From contig CALVEG010000013.1 of the NCBI GenBank assembly GCA_944326525.1, forward strand, positions 1 through 51,619: DNA of 51,619 nucleotides. Direction: 5' to 3'. This document shows positions 3,846-24,785 of this stretch, in pieces. A model generated the notes under the pieces. The model saw only the letters and a list, made by a program, of their open reading frames with translations. It searched no databases and was not told the origin of the DNA. The position numbers were made by a program, and so were the translations under genes. Numbering within the stretch: position 1 is the stretch's first letter; every line of letters starts with the position of its first letter. Origin of the DNA: Candidatus Gastranaerophilales bacterium. GTDB lineage: Bacteria > Cyanobacteriota > Vampirovibrionia > Gastranaerophilales > Gastranaerophilaceae.

Positions 3846-4076
3846 ATGAGAAGATATTTTTTGAAAGAAAACCTTAAGTATTATAATTCTCCGAATATAT
3901 CTATAGTAGATGATACTTTGGAATTTATAACCAAACCAAATACTGATTTATGGCAAAATACTTATTATAATTTTAAGCATGACAATGCGCCTTTTGTTCA
4001 AATGAATATTTGTGAAAAATATTTTTCTTTTACTGTGAAAGTTAAGCAGGTATGCCCAACCTACAGACTGTGTTGA
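3846..4076 (+). pseudogene. DUF1349-like protein, truncated N-terminal part
   Basis: The 76-residue product contains SIVDDTLEFITKPNTDLWQN, then TYYNFKHDNAPF and a K-Y-F-S-F-T-V-K-V strand. This matches the start of DUF1349 proteins (concanavalin-like beta-sandwich, about 190-200 residues), where a T-D-F/L-W-Q-x-T motif is followed by F-T-x-x-V-K-V. After KVKQ the sequence diverges into VCPTYRLC and stops, so about 60 percent of the domain is lost. I chose ATG 3846 because the -10 box overlaps the alternative upstream start. The gene is probably a remnant. Confidence 0.6.
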
Positions 4077-4205
4077 AAAATTTTTCAAAATTTTAAATTT
4101 ATGTGGAAATTTATTTCAATTTACTCTAAAATATAAAAATATTGTGTAAATATGAGCAAATTTTATTTTTAGGTGTGTTAAATATTACATAGGGAGTATT
4201 TTATA

Positions 4206-5858
4206 ATGCGCATACAATATAATATTAATAATAATTATAATCAAAATGTTCAAGTTAGGCAGAGAAATTTGAATAATTCTAATCTAGAATCTAAAAAGTT
4301 AGAAAATAGAACTCAAAAATATTCAACAAATGAAAATATATCGTTTGGAATGGGAACAATTAACCCCCAAAAAGGCAATAATGTACTTGCTAAGATTATA
4401 AGTCGTATAGTTAAGATTGGACAACAAGAAGCAAATGCGAATAGTATAGAGAAAACTGATAATATTGTTAATGAAGTCGTAAAAAAAGTTACTGATAATA
4501 GTTCAAACTTCAAGAATGAAATAAAAAAAGTAGATTCTGTCATAGAAAATCAGAATTTAAAAGTGAGCTCAGATAATAACTCTCCAATTGCAAATATAAT
4601 AAAAAATAATACCGAAGTTAATGAGATTATCATGCCTAATTATTCTGAGGAATATAATTTTTTCAAAAATCTTGCAGATAAAGCTCCATACAAAGGCGAT
4701 TGGTATGCAGAAAATGGTATGATTGAAGCATACTACCATGACTCAGGTGCTCTTATGCAGGTATCAGAGCGTGATTCTAAAAACACAAAATGGCTTAACT
4801 TGGCTTTTTTTGATAAAAATGGTAAGTTAGAGTCTGGTGAAAGGACGTATCCTGAAATTATAAAAAGATATTCTTTTTATGGAAATGGTAGATTAAAGCA
4901 AGCTGGCGAGTATAATCCCACAACCAATAAATGTGTTCAATTCCATTCTTTTTATGAAGATGGAACACTAAAATCAATTATAAATTTTGATCCAATAACA
5001 AAGAAAAAACTTAAACAAACATGTTATCTCCCAGATGGTAAGGGTATAGGGTGTATCGTAGAATATGATCCTATAACTGAAAATGAACTAAAAGAAATAG
5101 TTTATCATTCAGATGGGAAGAATATAAAAAAAATTACTAATTATGATCCGAAAAAATTTGGTTGTATTAAAAATGAAAAATATTATCAAGCAGACGGAAT
5201 AACTTTGGAAAGAATTATTGATTATAATACATCGGAAGAATTAGTTATTGGTAAAGTTGAAAAAATGGAAGATTTTTCAAGAGTTTTGAAAGACACGTAT
5301 TATCATGCTGATGGCAAAAATATAAAAAGAGTTATATTTTATCCAAATCGCTACAATAGCGAGTTTGATAAAATACAAACAGATTATCAAATAATCAATG
5401 GTACAAATCGTAAAATTAAAGAAACATTTTTTTGTGATGAAGCTCTGGAGCAGACCATCGAATATGATCCAACTACAGGACATGTAGTTAAAGATATTGA
5501 ATATTATGACGAAGAAATAGAAAGCATTTCTGAATACTGGCCAGCAACAGGAAATAAACTAAAAGACACAGTTTATCCTCGTGGCGGTAAAGCCTATTCT
5601 TTTATAATTGATTATGATTCAAATGGAAATATGTTAAAAGAAACATATTATCACGCAGATGGTCAAACAATAAAAACTATTGCCACACCTGATTATGATC
5701 AAAATGGCAACAAAATAATAAAAGAAATTGAGTATTGCAAAGATGGTAAGACTATAAAATGGATTTTAGAGAAAGAGCCTGAAACAGAAAAAGTATTAAA
5801 ACAAACAAATTATGAGTCGGATGGTAAAACTATAAAAGAGGTTATTGAGTATAGTTAG
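4206..5858 (+). CDS. MORN/YwqK-like repeat protein
   Basis: This 550-residue protein has no signal peptide. The first 130 residues are Asn-rich and low-complexity and contain NISFGMG, the FG-type N-terminal motif seen elsewhere in the window. From about residue 150 to the end it is a run of units of roughly 22-33 residues with the pattern Y-Y-x-x-D-G-K-x-I-K-x-x-x-x-Y-D-P-x-T-x-x-x-L-K-E. Such repeats are found in YwqK-family proteins annotated as toxin-antitoxin antitoxins and in MORN-like beta-hairpin proteins. A scaffold, adhesive or effector role is possible; no catalytic domain is visible. Upstream GGGAG is a plausible ribosome site. Confidence 0.65.
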   Translation: MRIQYNINNNYNQNVQVRQRNLNNSNLESKKLENRTQKYSTNENISFGMGTINPQKGNNVLAKIISRIVKIGQQEANANSIEKTDNIVNEVVKKVTDNSSNFKNEIKKVDSVIENQNLKVSSDNNSPIANIIKNNTEVNEIIMPNYSEEYNFFKNLADKAPYKGDWYAENGMIEAYYHDSGALMQVSERDSKNTKWLNLAFFDKNGKLESGERTYPEIIKRYSFYGNGRLKQAGEYNPTTNKCVQFHSFYEDGTLKSIINFDPITKKKLKQTCYLPDGKGIGCIVEYDPITENELKEIVYHSDGKNIKKITNYDPKKFGCIKNEKYYQADGITLERIIDYNTSEELVIGKVEKMEDFSRVLKDTYYHADGKNIKRVIFYPNRYNSEFDKIQTDYQIINGTNRKIKETFFCDEALEQTIEYDPTTGHVVKDIEYYDEEIESISEYWPATGNKLKDTVYPRGGKAYSFIIDYDSNGNMLKETYYHADGQTIKTIATPDYDQNGNKIIKEIEYCKDGKTIKWILEKEPETEKVLKQTNYESDGKTIKEVIEYS

Positions 5859-5885
5859 TAGAATTAATTTAAATTTCTAAAATTA

Positions 5886-5936
5886 TCTGTCCCAAAATTC
5901 CCGAACTGGCTGTCAAATATTCCTGAACTGGTTGTT
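5886..5936 (-). repeat. Paired half-site repeat, distal copy
   Basis: On the minus strand the unit reads CCAGTTCAGGAATATTTGAC then AGCCAGTTCGGGAATTTTGG. It keeps the spacing and ACAGCC core of the units around the Mu-like relic, with GTTCxGGA in place of GTTTGAGA. It abuts the open end of a gene fragment (5927-6208), which suggests that insertion or recombination at the repeat cut that gene. Confidence 0.5.
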
Positions 5937-6208
5937 CTTTTACAACTGTGTTGGGAAATTTTGATAGTGAGAATGGTAAGCCTTTATTTTTATTATATTG
6001 TGCTGAATTTATTCAGGCTATCAAGCCTTTAACCAAATTAGATTATATTTTATGTGGTAGTAGTAATGGCTCAACTGATTTTACTTGGTTTACTTCTGTT
6101 TCCCATATTGATAATTATATAGCAAAACAATTTAGCAAAAGTGATACTAAAATCGCAAATTTAACTCCTCATACTATGATGAGTTTTGTTCAAATTCCAA
6201 AAGAGTAA
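5927..6208 (+). pseudogene. C-terminal fragment of an unidentified protein
   Basis: The frame is open from the edge of the repeat at 5927 and ends at TAA 6206-6208. The only start is GTG 5948, without a ribosome site. The 86 residues from GTG include LLYCAEFIQAIKPLTKLDYI and FTWFTSVSHIDNYIAKQF. I do not recognise a family. The absence of translation signals and the contact with a repeat argue for a truncated gene. Confidence 0.4.
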
Positions 6209-6262: not shown

Positions 6263-7372
6263 TTAAGTGCCAAATATTCTGTATTTGTCTTGTTTCGTAA
6301 CCGATTGATTTACGATATTGTTTAACAAATTTACACACTTGTCATTAACTTCTGGCAATAAATGGGTGTATAAATCCATTGTCATAGTAATTGAAGCGTG
6401 TCCCAGCTGGGTTTGTACATATTTCATCGGGGCGCCGTTAGCTAACAGTAAACTGGCATAAGTATGCCTTAAATCATGAAATCTGATTAAATCAATACCT
6501 GCACGATTTAATGAAGGTATAAATCTTCTTTTTATCATATTATCTGCACTTTGGTATTTACCCTCACTATTAGGAAATACAAGATTTAATTCGCTATGAG
6601 GGCAAGCAAGACGCCATTCTTTTAATACTCTTGCAAGCTCATCACTCATATCAACATATCTTGTTTTACTTGACTTCGGTGTCCCTAATCTACCGTTGAC
6701 ATAGTTTTTATCGACTGTGATTTTACCTCTAACCCAGTTTATAGAATCCCAAGTAAGAGCTATTAACTCTCCACGCCTCATACCTGTAAACAAAGCTGTA
6801 AATAATAATGGGTAGAAATCTGGATAAACTACCTTTGTTTTAGTTAATAAAGCCTGTACTTCTTCTGTAGATAAAGCTCTAATCTTATCATTTTTTATTT
6901 CTTTTAATGGTTTGATCCTTGCTATAGGATTTCTAGTTATAGCATCGTTGTCAATCATAAAGTTGTAGATTGCACTCAAAAATTTCACATATTTGTTTAT
7001 CGTTGAATTTTGGCGTCCTTTGTCTTGCATTTGTTTTATGAATTCTTTTACAAGTATAGGACTAATTTCATTGATATTAAGCTCGCCAAAGAATGGAACT
7101 AAAAGATTTTCCAAGTATCCACAATAAGTTTTGTAAGTAGAAGGTTTACAATTTGAACTTGCATGAAGTCTTAGATATAACTCGCCAGCTTCTTTTAATG
7201 TGATTTTTGCATTAACTGGATTTAAACCTTTGTTCAAATCTTCAACCATTTTATTATAGGCTTTTTCTGCTTCTGCTTTGGTTTTAAAACCTTTCTTTAT
7301 TCGCCGTTTACCTCTAAGGTCTTTATAATCAAATTCCCAGTTATTTGTTTTCTTATTTTTTCTTATTGACAT
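6263..7372 (-). CDS. Tyrosine recombinase (phage/ICE-type integrase)
   Basis: This 369-residue integrase should catalyse site-specific insertion and excision of the surrounding element. Three parts are visible: an N-terminal arm-binding domain of the AP2-like type (residues 1-50, WEFDYKDLRGKRRIKKGFKT), a SAM-like core-binding domain (about 60-155), and the catalytic domain. The catalytic residues are R in TGMRRGEL (about 199), H-x-x-R in HDLRHTY (about 297-300), H in LGHAS and the nucleophile Y in DLYTHLLPE (about 333). The ribosome site AGGAG precedes ATG. The excisionase-like gene lies 139 bp upstream. The tRNA-fMet fragment at 17220 is the best candidate attachment site for the element. 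Confidence 0.9.
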   Translation of the reverse strand: MSIRKNKKTNNWEFDYKDLRGKRRIKKGFKTKAEAEKAYNKMVEDLNKGLNPVNAKITLKEAGELYLRLHASSNCKPSTYKTYCGYLENLLVPFFGELNINEISPILVKEFIKQMQDKGRQNSTINKYVKFLSAIYNFMIDNDAITRNPIARIKPLKEIKNDKIRALSTEEVQALLTKTKVVYPDFYPLLFTALFTGMRRGELIALTWDSINWVRGKITVDKNYVNGRLGTPKSSKTRYVDMSDELARVLKEWRLACPHSELNLVFPNSEGKYQSADNMIKRRFIPSLNRAGIDLIRFHDLRHTYASLLLANGAPMKYVQTQLGHASITMTMDLYTHLLPEVNDKCVNLLNNIVNQSVTKQDKYRIFGT

Positions 7373-7887: not shown

Positions 7888-10815
7888 TCAAATTACTTCC
7901 CCTGCCTTGTCTTGCGAATATTGTGTTTGAGCTTTCTTATCATGCTGGTATTCTTGCTCACTCAATTCTTCCTGATGTTTTTGCAACTCATTAAGGATAT
8001 ACAGTAGTTTCGCATTATCTTCCGGCACTTTAATAATTAGTGCTCTTGGAGAATTACCTTTTCTGAAATATTTATTGTTATATTCAATGTAAGGTTCTTT
8101 TGTGGCTTGTGTTCTGATGTCTTTTGCACTCGGTATCGGAATTCCGGTTTCTTCTGATTGTTTGAATTCTTTGCTGAATAGCGGATGTACACCGTCAACA
8201 TATATTGAAATCTCATTCTTTTGAGGATTAAAAACATATTCGCTACCGTATTGAATCTTGTTGCTTTTAGCAAGTATCAAAAATATTGCCATAAACTTTT
8301 CAAAACAATCTTCTGTATGTGTAATATCTTGATATGACTTAATATAGTTTTCAAGATTTTGGTTTAAGGTTTGTATTTCCGTTCCTCCTTTAAAGTCTTT
8401 ACTGAAATTGGCTACCTGATACAGAATATCCATTCCACACATAGCAATAGCAATGTTGTTAACACATCTTAGGTCAAGATTTGAATTGTTTTTTAGCACA
8501 ATTTTAGTATTATTGTCTAACATTTTCAGAATAGTGTCTTTATCTGCATACCATTTCAGTATTTTGGGTAAAACACAAGAAAGGTACTTTTCTCTGATTT
8601 GATTTATTTTGCTTGCCTCTTCAGGACTGAAATCATTTTTATAAAATTCGGTATACATAAGCCTTGTAGCAGTTTGTGGATTACGATGTGCTCTATCATT
8701 ACTTGCAAAATTCAATGTTGCATTAACAGCACGAACATCCTGTTCTTTGCCATAACCTGTCATTCTTTTTCTTGAATTTCTGTCATACACGGCTTTTGTT
8801 GTAGCTTCAAAATTCTTACGCATGTAGCCTTCTACTTCAGCATACAGAATAGGGATATTTTTATAGTATTCCATATTGTGCAATAAGTTCATAGCAGTAT
8901 CATTACCACTACTTAAAAATCTTGTATTGAATCCAAATAAATACGCTATTGTAATTAACAAATTGCTTTTACCACTTGCAGCTTCACCATACATAAAGTT
9001 AACTGGGAATCCCATTGTTTTGCTAAAAATAATATCTACGAACGGACTCATAATAGCTGTTCCAATATTTAAAAGTGGTTCAACCTTATTTCCATATGTA
9101 CGAATTGTGTTAACAAATACACACTTAGCTATAAGCTCCTCGATTGAGGTTGATGTTGCTGAAAACTCTTTTATAAGTTCGTCGTTTTTATTTTGTTCAA
9201 CAAATTCAGAATAAGACATTTCTGGAATGTAAAGCTCTGGAGCATACATATCCCTATCAGTTTTTAGTGTAAATGAGTTATTGTAATCAAGTTGAATTAC
9301 ACCTTTTGAATTTGCCTTTGGAGTTAATATATTGCCATTTTTCAAGTCAATCGCAGCATTTTTATATATCCAAAACGGGTTGTCATTATGAAAAATTAAA
9401 GAAGGATTTTTGAAAATATTTAGTTCTTCAGGTATATTGCTTAATTCTTCAAGTAAAATGTTTTTAAGTTCGGTATCTTTTAAGCAATGTAAATGAATCC
9501 CACCTTCCTTTAACACATCATGCAAGTTTTTCAAATCTAATAATTCTTTTTGGGATAAAATTATGGGCTTTGTTGTTTTGTTTCCAATATTCGTAACAAT
9601 TTCAAGTTGATATTCCTGATGATTTTCAAAACTATATGTATTGACTACAACTGTTTTTGTTACATTAAGAGTAAAATTTGATTTTTTTACATAGGTTAAT
9701 TGTCCAGAATCTGAATCATATTTTACGTAGTAATAACATCCTTTGTACGGATAGATTCCTCTTTCAAAAAATTCCATAATTGCTTTGTGTTCTGCTTTTA
9801 CCTCAACTGTAGCCGGCATATCCATTTTAACATTGGTATGCCTAAGATATAATTTCAAAACGGAATATGGCGATATTTTGATATTATCTTCTAAGATATT
9901 CTCTGTTATTGCATTCTTTTGGATGTACTTGTACAAATCGGTAAAATCATTTATGTAAGCACTAATTCCATTAAGTTTACCTAAATTAAATGAATGAAAA
10001 ACAAGTGGAATTTCTTGTTCTATTTTTTTATATGCTTTTCGACCTGAAATGTCATTATCCATGCAGATAATTATTCTCTCAAACTGCTTCAGGTAATCAA
10101 TATGCGGTTTAAGCGCTTTTGCAGTATTACCTTCACCGTTAGTATTTGTCAAAATTTGATAAAAATCTTGCAGATTAAACCTTTTCAAGTATTCATAAAC
10201 TGCATATCCGTCTTTATAGCCTGCACAAATAAAAGCATTTTGGGGATTGCTCGGATTGTTTATTTTCGATAAACATTTTTCAGGTTTATCCGCATAACCT
10301 TTCGTTTTAGATATAAACTTGAATTTCCCTTTGTGGTTTTCGTGAGTACGAATTTCATAACCTGTAACAGTGTTGTCAAGTGCTATCATTGGTATTAAGA
10401 AAACATCATTTTCTACATCATAACCGATTTTACACTCTTTTATTGTTTCATTTGTTAGGCCTGTATTTTCTTTCACAAGTTCTAACATTTTATTATTGTT
10501 TAATAAATTTGAGCTATATTTTTTCGTGCTATCTGTATCATATTTTGTTTTACTTAATTTTTTGAAAATAGCCTTATTACTATTTTTTGATTTTATAATT
10601 TCTTGCGCAAGTTTTTTGCCGTGTTCATTATTTGCACATGCTCCACAGAAAAAACCCTTATCTGGATTAAAGTTTAAATTATCACCATGCCTGTCATGTC
10701 CTTCTTCTGCACAATAAGGACATTTCCCTTGATATTGATTTATTCCGACTTTTTTCAGTTCAAATCCTAAAAAACTTTCTACTTCTTGAATTTCAAAATT
10801 ATAGTTAGTGCTCAT
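7888..10815 (-). CDS. Primase-helicase of integrative element (zinc ribbon, Toprim, P-loop ATPase)
   Basis: This 975-residue protein probably replicates the excised element. Residues C32, C35, C57 and C60 form a CHC2/DnaG-like zinc ribbon (KCPYC, then FFCGAC). Around residue 250, ERIIICMDNDISGRKAYKKI carries the Toprim D-x-D motif. Near residue 608-615, MYGEAASGKSNLL is a Walker A loop, and the following part, with AEVEGYMRKNFEATTKAVYD and LNFASNDRAHR, resembles DUF927-type helicases. ATG 10815 is chosen because AAAGGAG lies directly upstream; an earlier in-frame codon would add 11 poorly supported residues. The gene ends just before the iteron-like block and the xis-int pair, as in phage satellites and mobilizable elements. 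Confidence 0.8.
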   Translation of the reverse strand: MSTNYNFEIQEVESFLGFELKKVGINQYQGKCPYCAEEGHDRHGDNLNFNPDKGFFCGACANNEHGKKLAQEIIKSKNSNKAIFKKLSKTKYDTDSTKKYSSNLLNNNKMLELVKENTGLTNETIKECKIGYDVENDVFLIPMIALDNTVTGYEIRTHENHKGKFKFISKTKGYADKPEKCLSKINNPSNPQNAFICAGYKDGYAVYEYLKRFNLQDFYQILTNTNGEGNTAKALKPHIDYLKQFERIIICMDNDISGRKAYKKIEQEIPLVFHSFNLGKLNGISAYINDFTDLYKYIQKNAITENILEDNIKISPYSVLKLYLRHTNVKMDMPATVEVKAEHKAIMEFFERGIYPYKGCYYYVKYDSDSGQLTYVKKSNFTLNVTKTVVVNTYSFENHQEYQLEIVTNIGNKTTKPIILSQKELLDLKNLHDVLKEGGIHLHCLKDTELKNILLEELSNIPEELNIFKNPSLIFHNDNPFWIYKNAAIDLKNGNILTPKANSKGVIQLDYNNSFTLKTDRDMYAPELYIPEMSYSEFVEQNKNDELIKEFSATSTSIEELIAKCVFVNTIRTYGNKVEPLLNIGTAIMSPFVDIIFSKTMGFPVNFMYGEAASGKSNLLITIAYLFGFNTRFLSSGNDTAMNLLHNMEYYKNIPILYAEVEGYMRKNFEATTKAVYDRNSRKRMTGYGKEQDVRAVNATLNFASNDRAHRNPQTATRLMYTEFYKNDFSPEEASKINQIREKYLSCVLPKILKWYADKDTILKMLDNNTKIVLKNNSNLDLRCVNNIAIAMCGMDILYQVANFSKDFKGGTEIQTLNQNLENYIKSYQDITHTEDCFEKFMAIFLILAKSNKIQYGSEYVFNPQKNEISIYVDGVHPLFSKEFKQSEETGIPIPSAKDIRTQATKEPYIEYNNKYFRKGNSPRALIIKVPEDNAKLLYILNELQKHQEELSEQEYQHDKKAQTQYSQDKAGEVI

Positions 10816-10917
10816 TTTAGACTCCTTTCTATTTTTAATACTAGTCAACTCTGCAGTGTCAACAAATATATTTCAACAAAAAGTGCTAAAAATCTCACTC
10901 ATCAATTCTGTGACAAA

Positions 10918-11738: not shown

Positions 11739-12160
11739 CTATTTTAATCTAAGTCTTACATAAATATTATTTTGAATTGGATCATCTTCGTTATTTAAGT
11801 AATAAGAGTGCATATTTTTCTTTCCAACCCTTTTGGTTAATACTTCGAGAAAGTTATCAATATCGCCTGTTGTATTATTACCCATTTTAATCTTTGTCAT
11901 ATCTAAAACTAAAACAATTTCACCATCTTCAAATAATATAAAACTTGCAGGAATTCCGTTACCAACTATTTGAGGGTAAATTTTTGATTCTTGATATTTC
12001 TCTTTTATTAAATCTGTAAAAGAGGCCATTAGAACTTTATCTTCTGGACTTGTTGCATGCTCTTTCAGTGATTCAAACATTTCAAATCCCAATGTTTCTT
12101 TTGCCCATACAATATTGGTCAATAATGTACAAACAGTAATTAATAACAAAATTTTTTCAT
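11739..12160 (-). pseudogene. Secreted hypothetical protein with one-base frameshift in signal peptide
   Basis: ATG 12160, preceded by AAGGAT, begins ATG AAA AAA TTT TGT TAT TAA and stops at once. One extra base in the A6T4 run would give MKKILLLITVCTLLTNIVWA, a textbook signal peptide, continuous with the rest (KETLGFEMFESLKEHATSPE and so on, about 120 mature residues). The interval is 422 nt, one base short of a multiple of three. TTG 12149 could start a shortened form but has no ribosome site at the right distance. The mature part, with VLMASFTDLIKEKY and VVGNG-like turns, is not recognised. It is the third gene of an operon on the element. Confidence 0.6.
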
Positions 12161-12178
12161 GCTAATATCCTTATAATT

Positions 12179-12589
12179 TTAGTAGAGATTTTTTACTTCA
12201 CAGGTCAATTCCGAAACTTTAACCTGCGTTACAGGTTGCAAGGAATAAAAACGTGTTGTTATATCCAAATAATCGTATTTATTGGTGCCATAAATGGTTG
12301 TTTTATTTGATTCCTGATTGCGTAAAGGAGTGTAGCTAAAACTACCAGCAGTAAAATAATCAAAAGTTGCTGAACAGTTAACGTTGTACTGCAATTTATT
12401 ATATTTTTCTAAATATTGATAATCGTTAATTCGCAATTTGATTTTTAATTTACATTCATCATATCCAATACTTGAAAAACTTTTTTGAAAACATTTCAAA
12501 TTTGTATCTTCAATTTTCAACTCCGGTTTTGCAAGAGCAAATGGAGATGTAATTATAAATAGAAAGCAAATGATAAGCAGTTTTTTCAT
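12179..12589 (-). CDS. Secreted hypothetical protein, 136 residues
   Basis: The N-terminus MKKLLIICFLFIITSPFALA is a clear Sec signal peptide with cleavage after ALA. The mature part has four Cys (in LKCFQKSF, DECKLKI, VNCSATF, LTCEVKN), consistent with two disulphides, and alternates polar and hydrophobic residues as in a small beta protein. No lipobox is present. It follows a 33-residue membrane peptide gene by 9 bp and precedes another exported-protein gene by 18 bp, so the three are one operon. Family not recognised; a periplasmic or surface partner of the small membrane peptide is inference. Confidence 0.65.
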   Translation of the reverse strand: MKKLLIICFLFIITSPFALAKPELKIEDTNLKCFQKSFSSIGYDECKLKIKLRINDYQYLEKYNKLQYNVNCSATFDYFTAGSFSYTPLRNQESNKTTIYGTNKYDYLDITTRFYSLQPVTQVKVSELTCEVKNLY

Positions 12590-12598
12590 ATAATTATT

Positions 12599-12700
12599 TT
12601 AGTCCTTATCTTCAAAAAATAATTTTTGCCAACCAATTTTTATTAAGTTAATAATAAACGAAAGTACAATTACTGCTAAAACTCCAAACAATATTCTCAT
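12599..12700 (-). CDS. 33-residue single-pass membrane peptide
   Basis: ATG 12700 is preceded by AAAGG at about 8 nt. The product is MRILFGVLAVIVLSFIINLI followed by KIGWQKLFFEDKD: one hydrophobic helix (about residues 3-20) and a short charged tail likely in the cytoplasm. It is the first gene of a minus-strand operon of membrane or exported proteins and is divergent from the XRE regulator at 12823. Small hydrophobic peptides in such settings can be toxins, phage-exclusion peptides or membrane anchors; the sequence does not decide. Confidence 0.55.
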   Translation of the reverse strand: MRILFGVLAVIVLSFIINLIKIGWQKLFFEDKD

Positions 12701-12822
12701 ATTTAACCTTTCTTAACTACGCTTAGTATTTATCTCTAAAGTACATATTTATAAAAGATTTGCTTATATAAACGCACTGTCAGTTTGTTTATTTAAATCC
12801 ATATTACCACGAAAATTGCAAT

Positions 12823-13038
12823 ATGAGCAAAAAAGATTTACAAAAATTTGGGAAAAGGTTAAAATCTTTAAGACTTGATAAAGAATTAACACAGCTAGAA
12901 CTTGCTGAAATTCTTGATATGTCGCCTAATTTTATCGGAATGATTGAACGAGGTGAAAGAAATACAACTGTTGAAAATGTCTTTAAAATCGCAAGAGCCT
13001 TAGGAATTAAGCCTTCTATTTTATTTGAAGAACTTTAG
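12823..13038 (+). CDS. XRE-family transcriptional regulator
   Basis: This 71-residue protein is a single HTH_3 domain: RLKSLRLDKELTQLELAEIL followed by DMSPNFIGMIERGERNTTVE and a final helix ending LFEEL. The recognition helix is PNFIGMIERG. It is the lambda Cro/C1-like class and likely represses the divergent membrane-peptide operon (12700 downward) and its own gene from the 122-bp gap, which contains AT-rich symmetric stretches such as TTATATAA. Small regulators of this type are typical of integrative elements. Confidence 0.85.
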   Translation: MSKKDLQKFGKRLKSLRLDKELTQLELAEILDMSPNFIGMIERGERNTTVENVFKIARALGIKPSILFEEL

Positions 13039-13256
13039 GTCTGTAAAATATCTATTGCTTTTTGCAGCTTTTTGTTTAATGTTCTGAAAAGTACGTAATA
13101 GTCATCTTTGTCTTTATTGAATTGCAAGTCTTCATCAATAAGCCCTGAATCAGATACTAGGACGCCTAACTTAATGAACACTTGTAAATCGTATAAAATC
13201 ATTCTTGCGTCAGAAATCTTGTTTTCTAAATTATTTAATGCGTTTTTATCGCACAT
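13035..13256 (-). CDS. Small hypothetical protein on the integrative element
   Basis: This 73-residue protein has an excellent AAGGAG site about 9 nt before ATG. It is largely helical and charged (LENKISDARMILYDLQVFIK, ending LNKKLQKAIDILQT), with no membrane segment. It is convergent with and overlaps the last 4 bp of the XRE gene. Function unknown. Confidence 0.6.
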   Translation of the reverse strand: MCDKNALNNLENKISDARMILYDLQVFIKLGVLVSDSGLIDEDLQFNKDKDDYYVLFRTLNKKLQKAIDILQT

Positions 13257-13479
13257 AAAAATTAACTCCTTTGTATTTGTATGCGTATATCTAGCTGTTT
13301 TATGGCGTTTTTTATAGGTGTCTTGCTAATTCATAATCATACATTAGCGCATAAGTAGTATTTTGTGAATCCAGTTAATTTATTTTAGTTGTAAATGTTA
13401 GTAAATAATTAAGAAAATATTAATATAAATTAAACAAATCAGTTTATAAACTATTATAAATATATAATAAAGGGTAAGT

Positions 13480-16398
13480 ATGTCATTTTTTTTAGATAAT
13501 TTAAAAAACGTAAATCTATATGGAGTTTCAAACGATGGATTGACCTTAAGAGAAGCCCAGATTGGTGCATATATGGCTGTATGTTCACATTTTACTTGTA
13601 GTAATGAAATTGCTACTGTTGTTATTCCTACAGGTGTTGGTAAGACTGCGACAATGGCACTTATTCCATTTGGATTAAAAGCTAACAGAGTTTTAATAAT
13701 AGTTCCTAGTAAAACAATTAGAGGTCAAATATTTGAAGAATTTAGTAATTTTAATATCTTTCACAAATTAAATATTTATACAAAAACTAACAAACCAAAT
13801 GTGTTTGAAGTTAAAAAAAGTATAAACAATGATAGAGAGTGGGAAAATCTTAAAAATTATGAAGTTGTTATAAGTACACCTCATTGTATCAGCTCTAAGT
13901 ATAATTATGTTAAGAATCCCAAAAACTCTATCCGAGAATCTCTTTTTGATGTGATAATTATAGATGAAGCTCATCACATACCTGCAGAGACTTGGAAGCA
14001 TATTTTAAGTCAATTTAAAAATACTAGGAATATTCTGTTTACAGCAACTCCTTTTAGACGAGATAAAAAGATTATGCCTGGATTTCAAGTTTATGCTTAC
14101 CCATTAAAGAGGGCAATTGAAAACGGATATTATGAAGAAATTTCTTATGTTCCGATAGAAATAAATCCTAATGAAGATAAAGATGTTGTTTTAGCAGAAA
14201 AGGCAAAAGAACAACTTCATGTTTTAAAAACAAAAAATCCAGATATAAAAATGTTAATAAAGGTGGAATCAAAAGAAAAGGCAAAAACGATTAAAACGAT
14301 ATATGATAAAATTGGTTTGAATGTAAAAATTGTATCTAGTGATAATTCATATGAAACTAATAAAAAAGCTATTAATGAATTGAAAACCACCAAAGAATTA
14401 GATGGTCTAATATGTATAGATATGCTTGGGGAAGGTTTCGATTTTCCACAAATAAAATTGGCTGTTTTACATACTGCACCTCAAAGTTTATTACCGTTTA
14501 TTCAATTTGTTGGGAGGATTGCGAGAAAAACTGAAGGGGAAAGAATAAAAGGGGTATTAATAGCAGATAAGAATGATTTCTCTAACGAAATAGATAAAAT
14601 TACAGACGACTATAATAAACTTGCACAATTAATACCTAATATTATTGATTCACTTATTCTGGAGCGTAAAGATAAAAGAATTTATTATGATGAATTTGAA
14701 ACGGAAATATTAGGTTTTGATGAACCTATTAATTTAGAAAATATTTGCCCTAGTTTTACAATAAAAATGTATACCATTGGGCAAGAATACTTTTCGTTTG
14801 AACGTAATATAAAACTTACTGGGAATATAAAACTAGAGGAGTATAGAAAAAAAGATAATTTAGCAATATTCATAACCTCTCGGGAATTAAAGCCTAAATG
14901 GACAAAATCTAATTTATTAAAGAGTAAAGAATATCATTTAAATATTTTTTTCTATGATGAAATAAGAAACATTTTATTACATCATTCTACGGATGAAAAT
15001 GTGGGCAATTGTTTATTAGATTCTTTTTGTGAAATTTCTAAGTTACATAAAGCAAAAATGAACTATTTATTTCAACTAATGCAAATTGCCCAAAAAGCTG
15101 AATATCTTAATATTGGAGTAAAAAATCCTTTAAAATTAGTTGGTGGGTCTTATGAAAATTATATGGGTAAAGATGCACAAAATTCTATTAGTATTATACA
15201 AAGTAGTTATCAATGTTTAGGACATGCTTTTGCAAAATTGAAGCTTTCTAATTTAGATGAATATAGAGGTATAAGTCCATTCAATGCTAAAGTATGGAGT
15301 TTTAAAAAGGGTGATATTCAAGCTTTTGCTGAATGGTGTAAACTTATTACTGATAGTATAAATTTAGAAGCCGAACCAAATTTTGAATTGCCAAATTTGT
15401 CTTTAAAGGCAAATTTATTACAAATTTCAGAAATACAAGGAAATGAAATTTTATGCCTTGTACTCAATCAAAATTGTTATAAAGAAAATGTATTGATTAA
15501 AACAAATTCTAATAATATACCATTAGAATTTAATATTTTAGATATTGATTTCAAATTAGAAAAGGTATCAAATAAAATTATAAAAATAAACTTGCTTTAC
15601 AATGAACAACTTTTGACTTCAATATTATATGATTTAAATAATGAAGATACTATTTTTAATAATTTTGACAATAGTAATGAGTTTTATATTTTTACGAATA
15701 ATAAAACATATACATTGCCTGATTTCTTCAATGAGTATCTTCCAATGATAATGACAGATGAAGGTGAAAGCATAATTGGATGTTTATGTTTCAAAGTTGG
15801 AACAGATGATACAGTAAAACTTCCAATCGAGAATATATTTGAGCCTATTGACTTCACCGCTAATAAAATAAATATTAAACAGGAAATTCCATTCAAAGGA
15901 GAAACAAGTGAAAATAAATCAATTTTTACATATTTAAAAGAAAAATTTGAAAATGAAAGCAATAATGAATTTATAATAGAAGATGATGGAAGTGGAGAAA
16001 TTGCAGATTTTATTGTCATTACAAATACAGAAGTGAAGTTCTATCATTGTAAAGCTTCAAGGGAAGATATCTCGGGTTTAAGAATTAAAGAATTTTATGA
16101 AGTTATAGGACAAGCAATCAAATCAAGCAAGTGGATTAGAAATTCTGATATATTTAATCAATTAGCAAAGCGTATTCAAAAAAAACCAGAAAGACTCATA
16201 AAAGGGTGTTTAGATAATTTACAAAATTTAAAGGCTCACAAATATAGTTACAAAATTTATGTTGTCCAACCTGGATTAGATTATGTTCAATTTGTAAATA
16301 AAGAACCTGCCGATATAAAAAAACTGTTAGCTCTTGGTTATGATGTTATAAAATCAAGTGGCGAATTTAAAGTTATCTGTAACGGAAAATTTAATTAA
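13480..16398 (+). CDS. DEAH-box helicase fused to C-terminal nuclease-like domain, probable defence protein
   Basis: This 972-residue protein has AAGGGT before ATG and TATAAT at 13463-13468. Superfamily 2 helicase motifs are complete: Walker A PTGVGKT (about 50-56), DEAH in VIIIDEAHHIP (about 160), FTATPFRR, and motif VI QFVGRIARK (about 344). A long middle region (about 400-820) has no family that I recognise. Residues about 830-890 contain EIADFIVI, KFYHCKAS and FYEVIGQAIKS, fitting the D...x-x-K core of PD-(D/E)xK nucleases with His/Cys before the Lys. Stand-alone helicase-nuclease fusions on mobile elements are usually anti-phage or restriction-like. There is no methylase or specificity gene nearby. 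Confidence 0.75.
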   Translation: MSFFLDNLKNVNLYGVSNDGLTLREAQIGAYMAVCSHFTCSNEIATVVIPTGVGKTATMALIPFGLKANRVLIIVPSKTIRGQIFEEFSNFNIFHKLNIYTKTNKPNVFEVKKSINNDREWENLKNYEVVISTPHCISSKYNYVKNPKNSIRESLFDVIIIDEAHHIPAETWKHILSQFKNTRNILFTATPFRRDKKIMPGFQVYAYPLKRAIENGYYEEISYVPIEINPNEDKDVVLAEKAKEQLHVLKTKNPDIKMLIKVESKEKAKTIKTIYDKIGLNVKIVSSDNSYETNKKAINELKTTKELDGLICIDMLGEGFDFPQIKLAVLHTAPQSLLPFIQFVGRIARKTEGERIKGVLIADKNDFSNEIDKITDDYNKLAQLIPNIIDSLILERKDKRIYYDEFETEILGFDEPINLENICPSFTIKMYTIGQEYFSFERNIKLTGNIKLEEYRKKDNLAIFITSRELKPKWTKSNLLKSKEYHLNIFFYDEIRNILLHHSTDENVGNCLLDSFCEISKLHKAKMNYLFQLMQIAQKAEYLNIGVKNPLKLVGGSYENYMGKDAQNSISIIQSSYQCLGHAFAKLKLSNLDEYRGISPFNAKVWSFKKGDIQAFAEWCKLITDSINLEAEPNFELPNLSLKANLLQISEIQGNEILCLVLNQNCYKENVLIKTNSNNIPLEFNILDIDFKLEKVSNKIIKINLLYNEQLLTSILYDLNNEDTIFNNFDNSNEFYIFTNNKTYTLPDFFNEYLPMIMTDEGESIIGCLCFKVGTDDTVKLPIENIFEPIDFTANKINIKQEIPFKGETSENKSIFTYLKEKFENESNNEFIIEDDGSGEIADFIVITNTEVKFYHCKASREDISGLRIKEFYEVIGQAIKSSKWIRNSDIFNQLAKRIQKKPERLIKGCLDNLQNLKAHKYSYKIYVVQPGLDYVQFVNKEPADIKKLLALGYDVIKSSGEFKVICNGKFN

Positions 16399-16589
16399 AA
16401 TGATGAATTTCAAGAAAATAAACTATTAAAAGACTTATTATAATTAAAGGAAGATATTACCTATCATCAAATTTTTCGTGTCATCTAAACCAATTATTCC
16501 ATTTTAATGGTGGCTCCAACCGAGTAGCGGTTTCCATGCCTATTTCTAAATTTGTATTTTTATCTTTAATTGAATATTGTAAAAAACTT

Positions 16590-16813
16590 TTATACAATTG
16601 CGATATATAATTTTTCTGCCTGTTTATCACTAAGCTTATTTCTTTCAAAGTGATTAGAAGAGCCAACACTTTCAATAGTTGCCACTTTTTACGTGTTTTT
16701 AATTTTTTAGGTGATAATTGTCCTAATGATTTCCAGGAGCCCTTAAATTTATGAAGTTCTGAAATTATTGATAACATTTGATTTGAAGTTTTTATGCTTT
16801 CTTCATTAATCAT
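16590..16813 (-). pseudogene. Remnant of Fic-family protein N-terminus, frameshifted
   Basis: The frame begins MINEESIKTSNQ and contains ISELHKFKGSWKSLGQLSPK, the start of Fic (AMP-transferase) family proteins. At an A5 run the frame breaks; the next frame continues VATIESVGSSNHFERNKLSD then KQAEKLYIAIV and a stop, matching the I-E-S-x-G-S-S-x-x-x-E-x-N-K-L-S motif that follows in intact Fic proteins. The interval is 224 nt, one base short of a multiple of three. The HPFxxGNGR catalytic motif is absent, so this is a dead fragment. The unshifted frame runs on to 16481 but looks like noise. Confidence 0.65.
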
Positions 16814-17219
16814 TTTTTATCCGTTTGTTTATCCATAAATATATTTATAAAATGGCAAAAATAAATCCACCTATATGAGCAAGTGTAAAATTTCAAAAAA
16901 TACGGAATTTTTCTGTGGCTCAGCACGAGGGGGGCTCTTTATATTTTTGCCCCTCCCAACCCCTTAGAAGTAGTATTTAGAATGCAGATGTAAAGGAGGA
17001 GGTTTAACACAAAAGTTTTGTCATTTTACGCCAAGTTAATTTCATTTATACCTTTATCTCAGTTGCAAAAAGGTTGCAAAAATTCTGATAAATCAAAATT
17101 AAATCTGATAAAATCAGAGAATAAATTTAATCCCAAAATCATGCACCGCAACAAACATAGGTAAATTCTGATAAATTGCGGTTACAAGTAAAAATTCTTA
17201 CAAATACATTATTTCACAA
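16814..17219. other. Non-coding end of integrative element
   Basis: No gene is visible in these 400 bases. There is a GC-richer patch near 16921-16980 (CACGAGGGGGGC and CCCCTCCCAACCCC) and a purine-rich AAAGGAGGAGG at about 16994-17004 without a following gene. Direct repeats occur near the right end and are listed separately. Confidence 0.6.
17063..17176 (+). repeat. Direct repeats next to the attachment scar
   Basis: TTGCAAAAA occurs at 17063-17071 and 17074-17082. TCTGATAAA occurs at 17094-17102, 17104-17112 and 17167-17175. They lie within 160 bp of the tRNA fragment. Arm-type integrase sites are short direct repeats at such positions in lambda- and Tn916-like systems; assignment is inference. 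Confidence 0.45.
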
Positions 17220-17264
17220 CTCATAACCCGAAGGTCGTTGGTTCAAATCCAGCTCCCGCAACCA
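17220..17264 (+). other. 3' fragment of initiator tRNA-Met (CAU), probable attachment site
   Basis: The fragment starts in the anticodon loop (CTCATAA), continues CCCGA (3' anticodon strand), AGGTC (variable loop), GTTGG-TTCAAAT-CCAGC (T arm), TCCCGCA (3' acceptor strand), A and CCA. The CCC run next to the loop and the CGCAACCA end are initiator tRNA features. The 5' half is absent: upstream sequence cannot pair as D arm or acceptor strand. A 3' tRNA duplicate is the usual scar of tyrosine-recombinase integration. By polarity the element lies to the left; the complete tRNA gene should be at its other end, which is not in this window. Confidence 0.8.
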
Positions 17265-17350
17265 TTTAAGTGAAGAGGGTTTCAAGAAATTGGACTCTCT
17301 TTTTTAGTAAATATCTGAATGGTTGTTCCTTGAAAAATGAGGTTAGGATT

Positions 17351-18031
17351 ATGTGTATGAAATGTTTTAAAAGAAATTGTTATAATTGTTTTATTTTTGT
17401 TTTTTTATTTTTATTGATTTTGATATTTATATTTGACTATTGTTTTCATAGTTTGATTGAAAATATTATAGGATATTTAAATGTAATAATTGCATTTGTC
17501 TTGTGTTTATTGGCATATGGAGCACGAGATGATTGGCAAAAAGAAATAAAACGTAAAAACTTTGAAAATGCTAAGAAAAACTTAATCAATTCAATTATAG
17601 ATTGTGTGCAAACATTTAGAATGCATTGTTATGAAGATCCTACTTTATCTGCTATAACAGAAATGAATTCAAAAGCTTCTGAAGATGTGTGTTGCGATGA
17701 AAGTTCAAATAGACGCGAAATTTACAATATAGATATTGAATTTACAAGAAAAATACGTGATTTAAACCGAAATTTTGAACTTTTTGAAATTTATTATGAT
17801 AAAGAAAATACTTCAAATGAATTTGTGCAAATACAAGAGTTTAAACAAAAAATTATTAAATGGAGTTTCAATGTAAGAATTTTGGTAGTTGCAAAATTTA
17901 GATTTTATTTGCATTCTTCTGAGGACAATAATTTTGACAAATTCCAAGATAAATTGTTAAAGATGCAACCAGAAGTGAAAGATATTATTGAAGAATATAA
18001 AAATATAAAAAGAATTTTAAAAAGATTATAA
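17351..18031 (+). CDS. Two-helix membrane protein with cytoplasmic helical domain, unknown
   Basis: I chose ATG 17351 (GAGGTTAGG upstream) over an earlier start that would read through the tRNA scar junction. The 226-residue product has a Cys-rich start (MCMKCFKRNCYNC), two membrane helices (FIFVFLFLLILIFIFDY and NIIGYLNVIIAFVLCLLAYG) and a long charged helical domain with coiled-coil character. It resembles in layout the small membrane proteins with a cytoplasmic tail often annotated only as hypothetical. It is the first gene outside the probable island. Confidence 0.5.
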   Translation: MCMKCFKRNCYNCFIFVFLFLLILIFIFDYCFHSLIENIIGYLNVIIAFVLCLLAYGARDDWQKEIKRKNFENAKKNLINSIIDCVQTFRMHCYEDPTLSAITEMNSKASEDVCCDESSNRREIYNIDIEFTRKIRDLNRNFELFEIYYDKENTSNEFVQIQEFKQKIIKWSFNVRILVVAKFRFYLHSSEDNNFDKFQDKLLKMQPEVKDIIEEYKNIKRILKRL

Positions 18032-18149
18032 TGATCCCGTTTAGATTTTGTAAAATTATATTACGATTTTTGTTCATTTTGAAATTCGGGATTTGAAATA
18101 AACTTTATATATATACAGTTAAAAATACTGTTTTTTGTTCATTTAGAAT

Positions 18150-18182
18150 GGAAAGGGGCGATGAGCCCCTTTCCTTCTGTTT
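18150..18182 (+). terminator. Probable intrinsic terminator
   Basis: GGAAAGGGGC (18150-18159), loop GATGA with its flank, and GCCCCTTTCC (18165-18174) form a perfect 10-bp stem followed by TTCTGTTT. The T-tract is short of ideal. It lies downstream of the gene ending at 18031. Confidence 0.6.
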
Positions 18183-18277
18183 ATTATTTTATAAAATCTA
18201 TTTAGATAATTGTAAAGTTTTGTTTTTTAATAGCAAAAAAATCCTTGATTGGTTTTATACCAAAAAAGGAGATCCTT

Positions 18278-21614: not shown

Positions 21615-24600
21615 TTATTTTTCCGGAACAGCTTCTCTAATTGCTTTATCAACTTCATTGTCGCTGAGTCCTTGTTTGAGAAGTTCTGTTTTTAGGGCAT
21701 CTTTTACTGCCTTTTCGCTTGTATGACCTTGCGTACTTGCGGTATAGGTTTTATCACCTATTTTAACAGTTATGCTTCCTTTATAAGTTTCTGTTCCTGG
21801 AATTTTAGTAACAGTTACTTTTATATTTGGTTTGGTGTTTCCAATTGTTGGTGCTTTGCCGTCATTCTTATCAACTAAATAGAAATCCAGCGGATTTGCA
21901 AAGGCTTCAGGATTGAAAGTAAGGTTATATTCTTTCTTGGTCTTTGGATCGACATAAGTTATTTCTCTTTCAAAGTGCTGAATTGCGGGACCATTTTTTT
22001 GTGAACCTGTTTCCCAAATATCTTTTCCGCCAAGAAACTCTTTACGGAACCAGTTACGGAAGTTCGCAGAATTTGGTGCACCGTATGCCTTTTGAAGTGT
22101 TTGCCAGCCTTGGTAATATACCTTATTACCTTCTTTTTTAGGTACTGCAACCTCTACAGGTACAGTTTTTACGTCTGAATGAACTTTTTCTTGATCCGGA
22201 GTTTTCTCTTTATCAATTTTGATAGTAGAAGATTGTTCCGGTGTGGTTGGCTGTACCGGCGTTACTGGTTGTGTCGGTGGGGTTGGTTCTGGGTTTCTTA
22301 TGTCTTTTTGTGATACAACTCTCATTACTTGCGCATCACGTCTTAGACCTTCATCTCTGACCTTATTCATAGAAAATAAACCTTTGATAGTGCCTGCTAA
22401 GGCCCCAGCTCCTGCTGCTATACCATAGACGCCAAGACTACTGAATTTTGGACGAAATTTATGCGTTTTCTCTCCTGTTTGTTCATACAATTCTCTGTCG
22501 GCATCAGGGTTTTCAACTTCACCTTTAGCGACACCCTGTTCTTTAACTTTGTGGTCATACTCCCAGTGCCCATCTTTGCCGCTAACGTGTTCAGTCCCAC
22601 TAACATGTTCAGTACCACTGACATGTTCTACACCGCTGACGTGCTCAGTACCGCTAACGTGTTCCACACCGCTAACGTGTTCAGTACCACTGACGTGTTC
22701 AGTGCCACTGACGTGTTCTGTTCCGCTGACGTGTTCTACCCCGCTGTCATACCAAGGTACTTCGGTTGTTTCAGTGTGTGTGCCGGCTAATATACCATTT
22801 TCATAATCATTAACTGTCCATTTATGTGATGTAGAACCACTTGATTCCCACGGGACATCAGCACTCCACGGGACATCAGCACTCCACGGAACATCAGCAC
22901 TCCAAGGAACATCTGCGCTCCAAGGTACATCTGCTTCCCAATTTACATCAGCACTCCAAGGAACATCAGCTTTCCACGGAACATCAGCTTCCCAGTGTAC
23001 ATCTGTGCTCCAAGTTGCATTATCTCCTGATAAATGGTAAGTTTTCTCAAATTCCCATGGTACTTCTACCGGTATCATTTTTGTCAGTGATGCCAGTTCG
23101 AAAATTTTTTCTGTAAACTTACAGGTCCTCATTGTTGCCATAAAGTCGGATACAAATACTGCTCCTGCACCTCCTAAAGCTCCAATACCTGCAGATTTAA
23201 GAACGTGGGCAATTCTCATTTGTATAGTTTTATCAGCTTCAGTTGTTATACCAGCGGCTTCCATTGCTTTCTTTATGACGCTTCGTTTTGTTTTTTGTCC
23301 GTCTGCAAGACCTCCAAATACAACACCTTCAAAACATCGGTCTACTTCTTGTAAATCACAGAAATAATCACAACCATCCTGATTTGTTTGGTTTTCTCCG
23401 GATGTCTTACCAGCTTGTGAATATGCAAGCATTTGTTCTTTATATTTTTGCGGATTGAATACATATTTTTTGCCGCCTTGGGTTGTTACGGTTGCTGCTC
23501 TGTCATCATTCGGATCTGTAATTTCATCACAGAAAAGCGCTGGATTCAATTTAACTAATTCTTGAACATCCGGATCTAAATTAGCAAATTGAGGTGCAGG
23601 CGTTGAATCATATTTATGTTTTTGCATGTCTATTTGTACCTGCGCCAAAGCTGAAACTTCAACCAGTTTTTCAAAATTCTTTTCTCTGAATTCAGCTTCT
23701 TTACTTACTGAATTTTTAGCAGCTTTTTGGGCTTTTTCTTCCAAATCTTTGATTTTCTTTTGGATGTCTTCCGGTAATGCTGCATTACAGTTTTTGTTGT
23801 ATTCTACTGTAAGTTCTAAATGTTGTTTTTCCAGTTCTTTCTTTTTGGTTTCGTCTGTTTCATTTTTTATCTTTTCTTCTAATTCAGCTTTTTGTTTGTT
23901 GTATTTTTCTGTCAACTCAACAATAGCCGGCATTTTGGCGTGTTTTGCTTTTAATTCGCCAATTTCTGCTTGGCATTCCTTAATTTCAGCAACACCTGAG
24001 TTTAAGTTCCTATATTTTATTGCATTAATAGCCATTTCTTCACAGGCATTTGCAATAAATTCAGAATTGTTGCCACCTATCTCATTGACAGCTTTAAATT
24101 GAGCTAAAGCTTTTAAATCATCCATTGTTAATTTTGTTAGGGTGATATCTCTTGTGTTAGATTTCTGCTCTTTTGTTTGAGTTTCTGGCGCAAAAGCTGC
24201 TTTGTAATCACCCAACAAATCAGGATCATCCAGTTTGTCTTTATATTTGTCGATATAAGCTTGAGCAGATGCTTCTACTTGTTTTTGGACTTCCGGGTGG
24301 TCATTAGCGTATTTAAGCTTTAGTCGCATTGCAGAAAGCCTTTTAGCCGGATCTGAAGTATCTGTATTTTTCCACAAATCAACAAAAGTACCTTGAAGTT
24401 GTTTTACCTCTTTATGGCATAACACTCTTATCATGTCATGCATAGCTTCACTTTTATTATTTGAGTATCTTTCACGGAAATAAGCTTTCCATTGGTTAGT
24501 TGTTACTTCTCTGAAGTCTTTATCTCCAAGCAAAGCTGCAGTGTCAACCGGCGGCGGTTTTACTGTCCCGTCATCCTTTTTCTCAACAACTAAGCCTTGA

Positions 24601-24785
24601 ATTGCAACGTTATCTTTATAATAATTGTTAATTTCTTCTGTAGAACGCCCTTTACTTAATGCTCGGGCAATCCCGGCTGCAAATCTGGCATCGTTTGTAC
24701 ACGCTTGTCTAATTGTGGGATCTAAATTCCTCCATTGCCTTTCCGTAAAACCTTGCGGAATTGAAGTCATCATATTACTACCCAT
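21615..24785 (-). CDS. 1056-residue protein with two hexapeptide repeat blocks, unknown
   Basis: AAAGGA precedes ATG. There is no clear signal peptide. Residues about 1-470 are charged and helical, with coiled-coil stretches such as KQKAELEEKIKNETDETKKK. A Gly/Ala-rich hydrophobic segment (GIGALGGAGAVFVSDF) is near 545. Residues about 591-647 are tandem W-S-A-D-V-P units and about 682-737 are tandem E-H-V-S-G-T/V units, together about 18 hexads. A second hydrophobic segment (VYGIAAGAGALAGTIKGLF) follows near 785, then a Pro/Thr-rich linker and a C-terminal domain with VKIGDKTYTASTQGHTSEKA. It may be a membrane-spanning scaffold or surface protein. No family recognised. Divergent from the giant adhesin. 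Confidence 0.7.
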   Translation of the reverse strand: MGSNMMTSIPQGFTERQWRNLDPTIRQACTNDARFAAGIARALSKGRSTEEINNYYKDNVAIQGLVVEKKDDGTVKPPPVDTAALLGDKDFREVTTNQWKAYFRERYSNNKSEAMHDMIRVLCHKEVKQLQGTFVDLWKNTDTSDPAKRLSAMRLKLKYANDHPEVQKQVEASAQAYIDKYKDKLDDPDLLGDYKAAFAPETQTKEQKSNTRDITLTKLTMDDLKALAQFKAVNEIGGNNSEFIANACEEMAINAIKYRNLNSGVAEIKECQAEIGELKAKHAKMPAIVELTEKYNKQKAELEEKIKNETDETKKKELEKQHLELTVEYNKNCNAALPEDIQKKIKDLEEKAQKAAKNSVSKEAEFREKNFEKLVEVSALAQVQIDMQKHKYDSTPAPQFANLDPDVQELVKLNPALFCDEITDPNDDRAATVTTQGGKKYVFNPQKYKEQMLAYSQAGKTSGENQTNQDGCDYFCDLQEVDRCFEGVVFGGLADGQKTKRSVIKKAMEAAGITTEADKTIQMRIAHVLKSAGIGALGGAGAVFVSDFMATMRTCKFTEKIFELASLTKMIPVEVPWEFEKTYHLSGDNATWSTDVHWEADVPWKADVPWSADVNWEADVPWSADVPWSADVPWSADVPWSADVPWESSGSTSHKWTVNDYENGILAGTHTETTEVPWYDSGVEHVSGTEHVSGTEHVSGTEHVSGVEHVSGTEHVSGVEHVSGTEHVSGTEHVSGKDGHWEYDHKVKEQGVAKGEVENPDADRELYEQTGEKTHKFRPKFSSLGVYGIAAGAGALAGTIKGLFSMNKVRDEGLRRDAQVMRVVSQKDIRNPEPTPPTQPVTPVQPTTPEQSSTIKIDKEKTPDQEKVHSDVKTVPVEVAVPKKEGNKVYYQGWQTLQKAYGAPNSANFRNWFRKEFLGGKDIWETGSQKNGPAIQHFEREITYVDPKTKKEYNLTFNPEAFANPLDFYLVDKNDGKAPTIGNTKPNIKVTVTKIPGTETYKGSITVKIGDKTYTASTQGHTSEKAVKDALKTELLKQGLSDNEVDKAIREAVPEK
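22577..22742 (-). repeat. 18-nt tandem repeat coding EHVSG(T/V)
   Basis: About nine to ten copies of an 18-nt unit code for E-H-V-S-G-T or E-H-V-S-G-V. Third positions vary (GTG/GTT/ATG-like changes), so the units are diverged at DNA level but conserved in protein, which suggests selection on the peptide repeat. Confidence 0.8.
22846..23014 (-). repeat. 18-nt tandem repeat coding W(S/E/K)ADVP
   Basis: Nine or so units code for W-x-A-D-V-P with S, E or K at the second position and occasional H or N replacing P. The block lies N-terminal to the EHVSG block, separated by about 35 residues (SSGSTSHKWTVNDYENGILA and following). Confidence 0.8.

Follow-up and report, generated by a model that had tools for sequence, protein, structure and literature searches.

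The window, a stretch of 51,619 nucleotides, is the entire contig C13 of a Candidatus Gastranaerophilales genome of 1.95 Mb in 27 contigs. A single uninterrupted ORF on its forward strand encodes a protein of 972 residues, in which an SF2 helicase is followed by a predicted RdgC-like domain, a beta-rich domain and a predicted PD-(D/E)XK nuclease, see Table 1. Upstream of this gene lie an integrase, a primase-like gene, an HTH gene and small ORFs, i.e., the gene stands beside regulators on a mobile element, as the initial annotation had proposed.

Table 1. Features of the helicase-nuclease gene and of its island, in coordinates of the window.
Feature	Position	Strand	Evidence
Whole gene (SF2 helicase - RdgC-like - beta - PD-(D/E)XK fusion)	13480..16398	+	972 aa; ORF call and alignment with full-length homologues
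Upstream stretch of ~75 bp, shared with orthologue; probable promoter	13403..13479	+	blastn of 12001-18200 against L152
SF2 helicase core, residues 21-350	13540..14529	+	Pfam ResIII 2.5e-28, Helicase_C 1.1e-11
RdgC/RexA/CENP-L/N-like fold, residues 408-640, predicted DNA clamp	14701..15399	+	model pLDDT 88.3; RdgC Z 8.7
Beta-rich domain, residues 641-785	15400..15834	+	model of 375-972
Predicted PD-(D/E)XK nuclease domain, residues 786-972	15835..16395	+	structure-alignment Z-scores; invariant E802, E840, D843, H856, K858, Q878
Predicted active site E840-x-x-D843 ... H856-x-K858	15997..16053	+	conservation; Q878 at 16111-16113
Tyrosine integrase of island (context)	6263..7372	-	Pfam Phage_integrase 3e-28; PHROG integrase 5.5e-91
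Primase/helicase-like gene of mobile element (context)	7888..10848	-	PHROG 239 primase/helicase 1.4e-24; Toprim
HTH regulator (context)	12823..13038	+	Pfam HTH_3 7.9e-16

The integrase and primase context, the start of synteny, a displaced PHP gene and the GC content all place the gene on an inserted stretch. The right edge of this island is found at approximately 18038-18046, where synteny with congeners starts (YkuD gene, amylase). In the relatives G010 and G001 a PHP gene lies immediately to the left of this point, and in the host genome a broken copy of it is found on a different contig. The GC content is 25-29% over 11-18 kb of the window. The integrase has a 96% identical copy in another genus, and 1.34 kb of DNA is common to both at 91% identity. 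The left end of the island is cut off by the end of the contig, and neither its left border nor its att sites were found. No methylase or specificity gene is recognised among the scanned ORFs of the island, which agrees with the initial annotation. The HTH gene was considered as an operon partner or controller and rejected, as it has no counterpart beside the orthologue in locus L152, discussed below.

The island had also been described as tRNA-linked. This is not supported in the window, as its tRNAs (31720 and 50504) lie more than 13 kb past the right edge. A former tRNA link is possible, since a tRNA-Leu(CAA) is found near the same YkuD flanking gene in G011 and G001 (L115 and L121). In those two genomes the YkuD gene and the tRNA-Leu(CAA) are neighbours; in the window they are about 32 kb apart on one contig (18046-20252 and 50454-51619), a difference that points to an inversion, or to a contig join, beside the island.

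Other parts of the contig have features of their own. Positions 1-2043 and 4066-5944 are 100% and 98% identical to contig C16 of genome G006, and the segment between them differs, being 2.0 kb in the window and 2.8 kb in G006. A repeat of about 80 bp (1967-2043, 5863-5945), dispersed in the genus, borders these blocks, and the arrangement looks like a repeat-bounded cassette exchange. The stretches at 1.97, 4.07 and 5.87 kb show no attC-like folding beyond that of shuffled sequences. The stretch shared with G006 includes a 550-aa protein with nine DUF2963 repeat stretches (4206-5858, Pfam 2.6e-65), and a 1056-aa ORF with tandem WSADVPW and TEHVSG repeats occupies a locally GC-rich stretch on the reverse strand (21615-24785).

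The helicase is complete, as noted from the start: Walker A (PTGVGKT, 50-56), DEAH (162-165), TATPFR (188-193) and QFVGRIAR (342-349) are all intact, and Pfam also matches DEAD in this region. A Pfam scan of the protein gives no significant family beyond residue 350, and residues 390-972 are covered by no Pfam, NCBIfam or PADLOC family. Searches against NCBIfam and the defence-system models of PADLOC give helicase-level matches only, among them mREase_IV (7e-11) and, weakly, typeIV_DinG (1.6e-7) and YoaA. Among PDB sequences the helicase is closest to 7clg (953 aa, annotated "Putative helicase", E 7.6e-10), which we take to be SauUSI.

The region between the helicase and the nuclease, about 400 residues, had been called unrecognised. 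At the level of sequence families this stands, but residues 408-640 have a recognisable predicted fold. Folded alone they reach a pLDDT of 88.3, and the model aligns to E. coli RdgC with a Z-score of 8.7 (rmsd 4.3, 194 of 243 residues). The 14 top rows of the structure alignment are all RdgC, CENP-L/Iml3, CENP-N/Chl4 or RexA, and the next row has a Z-score of 5.2; the RexA row should be treated with caution, because its rmsd is 14.7. The two-part alpha/beta fold of this class is present over the full length of the predicted middle domain. RdgC, RexA and CENP-L/N form one DNA-binding fold class, in which RexA and RdgC align with a DALI Z-score of 4.4 (PMC11077077). From the model, the middle domain is a predicted DNA clamp of this RdgC/RexA/CENP-L/N-like type. 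It has the same predicted fold as these proteins but differs from them in showing no detectable sequence similarity and in linking a motor to a nuclease within one polypeptide.

These domains bear on the idea of a Type IV-like enzyme that follows the logic of SauUSI with its parts arranged differently, in which the middle or the beta domain would read modified bases of phage DNA, the motor would translocate and the C-terminal nuclease would cut. Such an enzyme would need no methylase partner, and both the 7clg and the mREase_IV matches point in its direction. However, these matches are confined to the helicase core, no PLD nuclease, DUF3427 or SRA-type family was found, and the middle resembles RdgC and CENP-L/N, not a known base reader. 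We therefore regard a Type IV-like enzyme as rather unlikely.

Both the predicted fold and the invariant residues point to a PD-(D/E)XK nuclease in the tail of the protein. The model of residues 375-972 has a pLDDT of 87.6 and a pTM of 0.84, and the helix/strand order is seen at 441-511 of this model. The last 180 residues align to the small subunit of R.BspD6I (Z 8.2, rmsd 2.8, 121 residues) and to other PD-(D/E)XK proteins, namely CdiA-CT (Z 8.1), FokI (7.7), Upx (6.5) and EndoMS (6.2), with SduA (5.5), LmuA (5.5) and HerA-DUF (5.0) at lower scores; SduA, LmuA and Upx are defence nucleases. The fold calls for both domains are based on VIA-align Z-scores together with the coherence of the top rows, and a Z-score near 8 is to be read as moderate. 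Foldseek searches with models of the nuclease half and of the middle gave no match at E <= 0.001, and a PDB sequence search with profiles of the nuclease and the middle gave nothing, even at E 10. A Pfam scan of 56 nuclease domains returned scattered chance matches only, and the nuclease half is without a Pfam family.

In the alignment of 56 C-terminal regions nine columns are invariant: E802, E840, D843, H856, K858, Q878, G909, Q930 and P931. After D843, the position of the (D/E)xK motif is taken by H856-x-K858, where histidine replaces the acidic residue, and E840 and E802 are invariant in addition. A histidine at this position is unusual among PD-(D/E)XK nucleases; across the 56 sequences, HxK is a hallmark of the family rather than a sign of decay. 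The proposal of a PD-(D/E)xK-like block with HCK in place of ExK is supported by conservation among the aligned homologues and by the predicted fold. The acidic residue is D843 and not D844, as it had been numbered.

A search with the nuclease profile over 299 Pseudomonadota genomes finds four proteins of about 600 aa that contain the middle and the nuclease but not the helicase (L159 2525-4348, L160 2388-4181, L161 2164-4029, L162 1986-3839). Their joint profile matches the middle-plus-nuclease half with a probability of 99.4 over 407 columns. PADLOC labels all four PDC-S71 (E from 2.6e-222 to 3.6e-10). PDC-S71, a single gene of about 590 aa, has the same middle and nuclease module and the same E-x-AD ... 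HxK ... Q motif, but lacks the SF2 helicase and is itself a computational candidate. The protein of the window has no match to the PDC-S71 profile of PADLOC at E <= 1, i.e., the link is by profile-profile comparison only, and PDC-S71 is not mentioned in the papers searched. Since the helicase-less relatives keep both clamp and nuclease, these two appear to be the core module and the motor an added part. The helicase-less protein of L159 adjoins a gene with a PLD domain. Three shorter ORFs in the same 299 genomes have an incomplete nuclease domain and are possibly remnants.

The family is widespread but sporadic. No full-length homologue was found in the 98 other genomes around the host, and the nuclease profile matches 3 of the 289 genomes of the class, the host included. 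Scanning of genomes yielded about 55 members of nearly full length, from at least eight bacterial phyla; distant yet full-length homologues occur in these phyla and in haloarchaea. At least 80% of the protein is found in one place on 29 plasmids of Bacteroidota, Pseudomonadota and haloarchaea, with 24-30% identity among the matches listed. Together, the class genomes and the plasmids show a sporadic distribution, not that of a core housekeeping gene. In a search of 20 genomes, every copy of the nuclease domain is part of the long ORF. The family tree has two well-supported sides, and the protein of the window is in the smaller one, on a long branch that makes its exact place unsure. A scan of IMG/VR with the nuclease profile confirmed no relative, and the phage collection gave nuclease matches in just two records, both named Acinetobacter phage and both with chromosomal metabolic genes around the match.

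One relative shows how the gene may move. Genome G156, from another genus of the same family, contains a 969-aa orthologue with 84% identity in locus L152. A blastn comparison of 12001-18200 with this locus gives similarity limited to 13403-16404 of the window, i.e., the gene and about 75 bp upstream. The neighbours in G156 are different, with an Eco57I-type methylase, a GHKL-ATPase/Hypoth_Ymh protein and a ParB-methylase. As nothing else is in common, this sequence comparison argues that the single gene is the mobile unit and works alone. The dN/dS ratio between the two orthologues is 0.10 for the whole gene and 0.07-0.15 for the single domains, i.e., each domain is under purifying selection and is kept.

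Homologues in other genomes are found in defence-rich neighbourhoods. For 117 genes that adjoin homologues or lie close to them, models of 339 PADLOC families match at 1e-10, compared with 13 for 117 control genes from 20 of the same genomes, taken on the same contig at a distance of about 60 kb or more. The family counts are redundant, since many models can match a single protein and related loci recur; they give a direction but no rate. Among the individual neighbours are HsdS, Eco57I methylases, type III Res, a Schlafen-group helicase, patatin, AbiE and an AAA+UvrD pair. The presence of HsdS, Eco57I-type methylase or type III Res genes beside some members, together with ResIII as the top Pfam match, could indicate an orphan restriction subunit that relies on Type I, IIG or III systems close by for its methylases or specificity subunits. 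This is very improbable, as these neighbours vary between loci and are absent in the window, and the protein has no RE_endonuc or HsdR-specific domain.

A conserved partner gene was also considered and rejected, as only an alphaproteobacterial subgroup has one. At L025, L043, L045, L055, L073 and L090 a large gene is located 13-14 bp upstream, often with another large gene before it. In both alphaproteobacterial members scanned the upstream gene is UvrD-PDDEXK (AddA-like), and this clade alone supplies about five of the UvrD neighbours; the arrangement is possibly a lineage-specific multi-gene version. The family as a whole is accessory and mobile; its members sit in defence neighbourhoods and have no constant partner.

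The neighbours of some homologues, AddA-like genes 13-14 bp upstream or genes of the umuDC type, could instead speak for a helicase-nuclease that repairs or maintains the mobile elements and plasmids carrying it, without an immune role. RdgC acts in recombination, and homologues are often on plasmids. However, there is no constant partner or element type, the neighbours are mostly varied defence genes, and the orthologue travels as a single gene; a pure maintenance role is in our view quite improbable.

We consider it fairly probable that the gene encodes a stand-alone, horizontally mobile anti-phage (or anti-plasmid) helicase-nuclease. One-gene phage defence is made probable by the relatives, which sit among anti-virus genes in many phyla. 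The suggestion of a single-gene defence candidate, perhaps an unnamed one, gains from the sporadic spread, the transfer of the gene alone, the defence neighbours and the lack of any model for residues 390-972. With a slight leaning in favour, we further suggest that the gene belongs to a widespread and unnamed family of one-gene immune systems. In such a family an RdgC/RexA-type clamp would connect the SF2 motor with an HxK-type PD-(D/E)XK nuclease, and the helicase-less cousins would show that clamp and nuclease form the core. The word unnamed refers to Pfam, NCBIfam and PADLOC, and a search of papers by accession gave no match; recent defence screens, e.g. DefensePredictor (PMC13092281), may have named the family.

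That the protein cleaves and clamps DNA and protects from phages, and what triggers it, we infer from the architecture, the predicted folds and the context. The SF2 motor would load on DNA and then move along it. The RdgC/RexA-like domain, which may dimerise, would hold the DNA with no strong preference for sequence, and cleavage would fall to the HxK-type domain. Self and non-self would be told apart by the state of the DNA, i.e., ends, single-stranded gaps or replication intermediates, by analogy with Hna and Hachiman; such a trigger is the most likely one, because there is no methylase partner. The response could end in abortive infection. If the protein is active in this way, a common one-gene defence system found across phyla would be added to those known. 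The DNA-binding fold of lambda RexA, RdgC and kinetochore proteins would also become linked with an effector nuclease, and the PDC-S71 group of PADLOC candidates, so far unannotated, would gain a structural reading.

No known restriction family fits the protein. SauUSI is an SF2 helicase fused to a PLD/HKD nuclease. The likeness to such Type IV enzymes lies in the fusion of an SF2 helicase to a nuclease, with weak similarity at the helicase level, but the C-terminal domain here is PD-(D/E)XK and not PLD. A SauUSI-like assignment was rejected, as the PLD nuclease, the DUF3427 coupler and a modified-base reader are absent in Pfam, NCBIfam and PADLOC searches. PbeA shares the helicase-nuclease plan and likewise differs in carrying a PLD nuclease (PMC10853773). 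Type I and Type III were rejected too, with no partner methylase or specificity gene in the island and no RE_endonuc or HsdR domain. The helicase-REase related to Type-1 BREX has Swi2/Snf2, TUDOR and inactive-REase domains in multi-gene loci (PMC12839542); it also has an SF2 helicase with a C-terminal PD-(D/E)XK domain, theirs active, whereas the protein of the window is a single gene and not part of a multi-gene Swi2/Snf2 locus.

Two systems come closer in plan. Hachiman (HamAB) combines a helicase and a nuclease that sense the state of DNA, in two genes (PMC12278908). Here there is one gene, with no HamA neighbour and no match to the HamB profile among the scanned genes of the window, and the assignment to Hachiman was rejected. 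Hna is an 845-aa single gene with a DinG/XPD-like helicase and a PD-(D/E)XK nuclease, and its action depends on DNA state (PMC13381803). It is like the protein described here in being one gene with an N-terminal SF2 helicase and a C-terminal PD-(D/E)XK nuclease, but the helicase here is ResIII/DEAD with Helicase_C and not DinG/XPD, an RdgC-like middle is added and the active site is of the HxK type. By the features compared, the protein resembles Hna and Hachiman in plan but is a member of neither, nor of the SauUSI-type, Type I or Type III systems.
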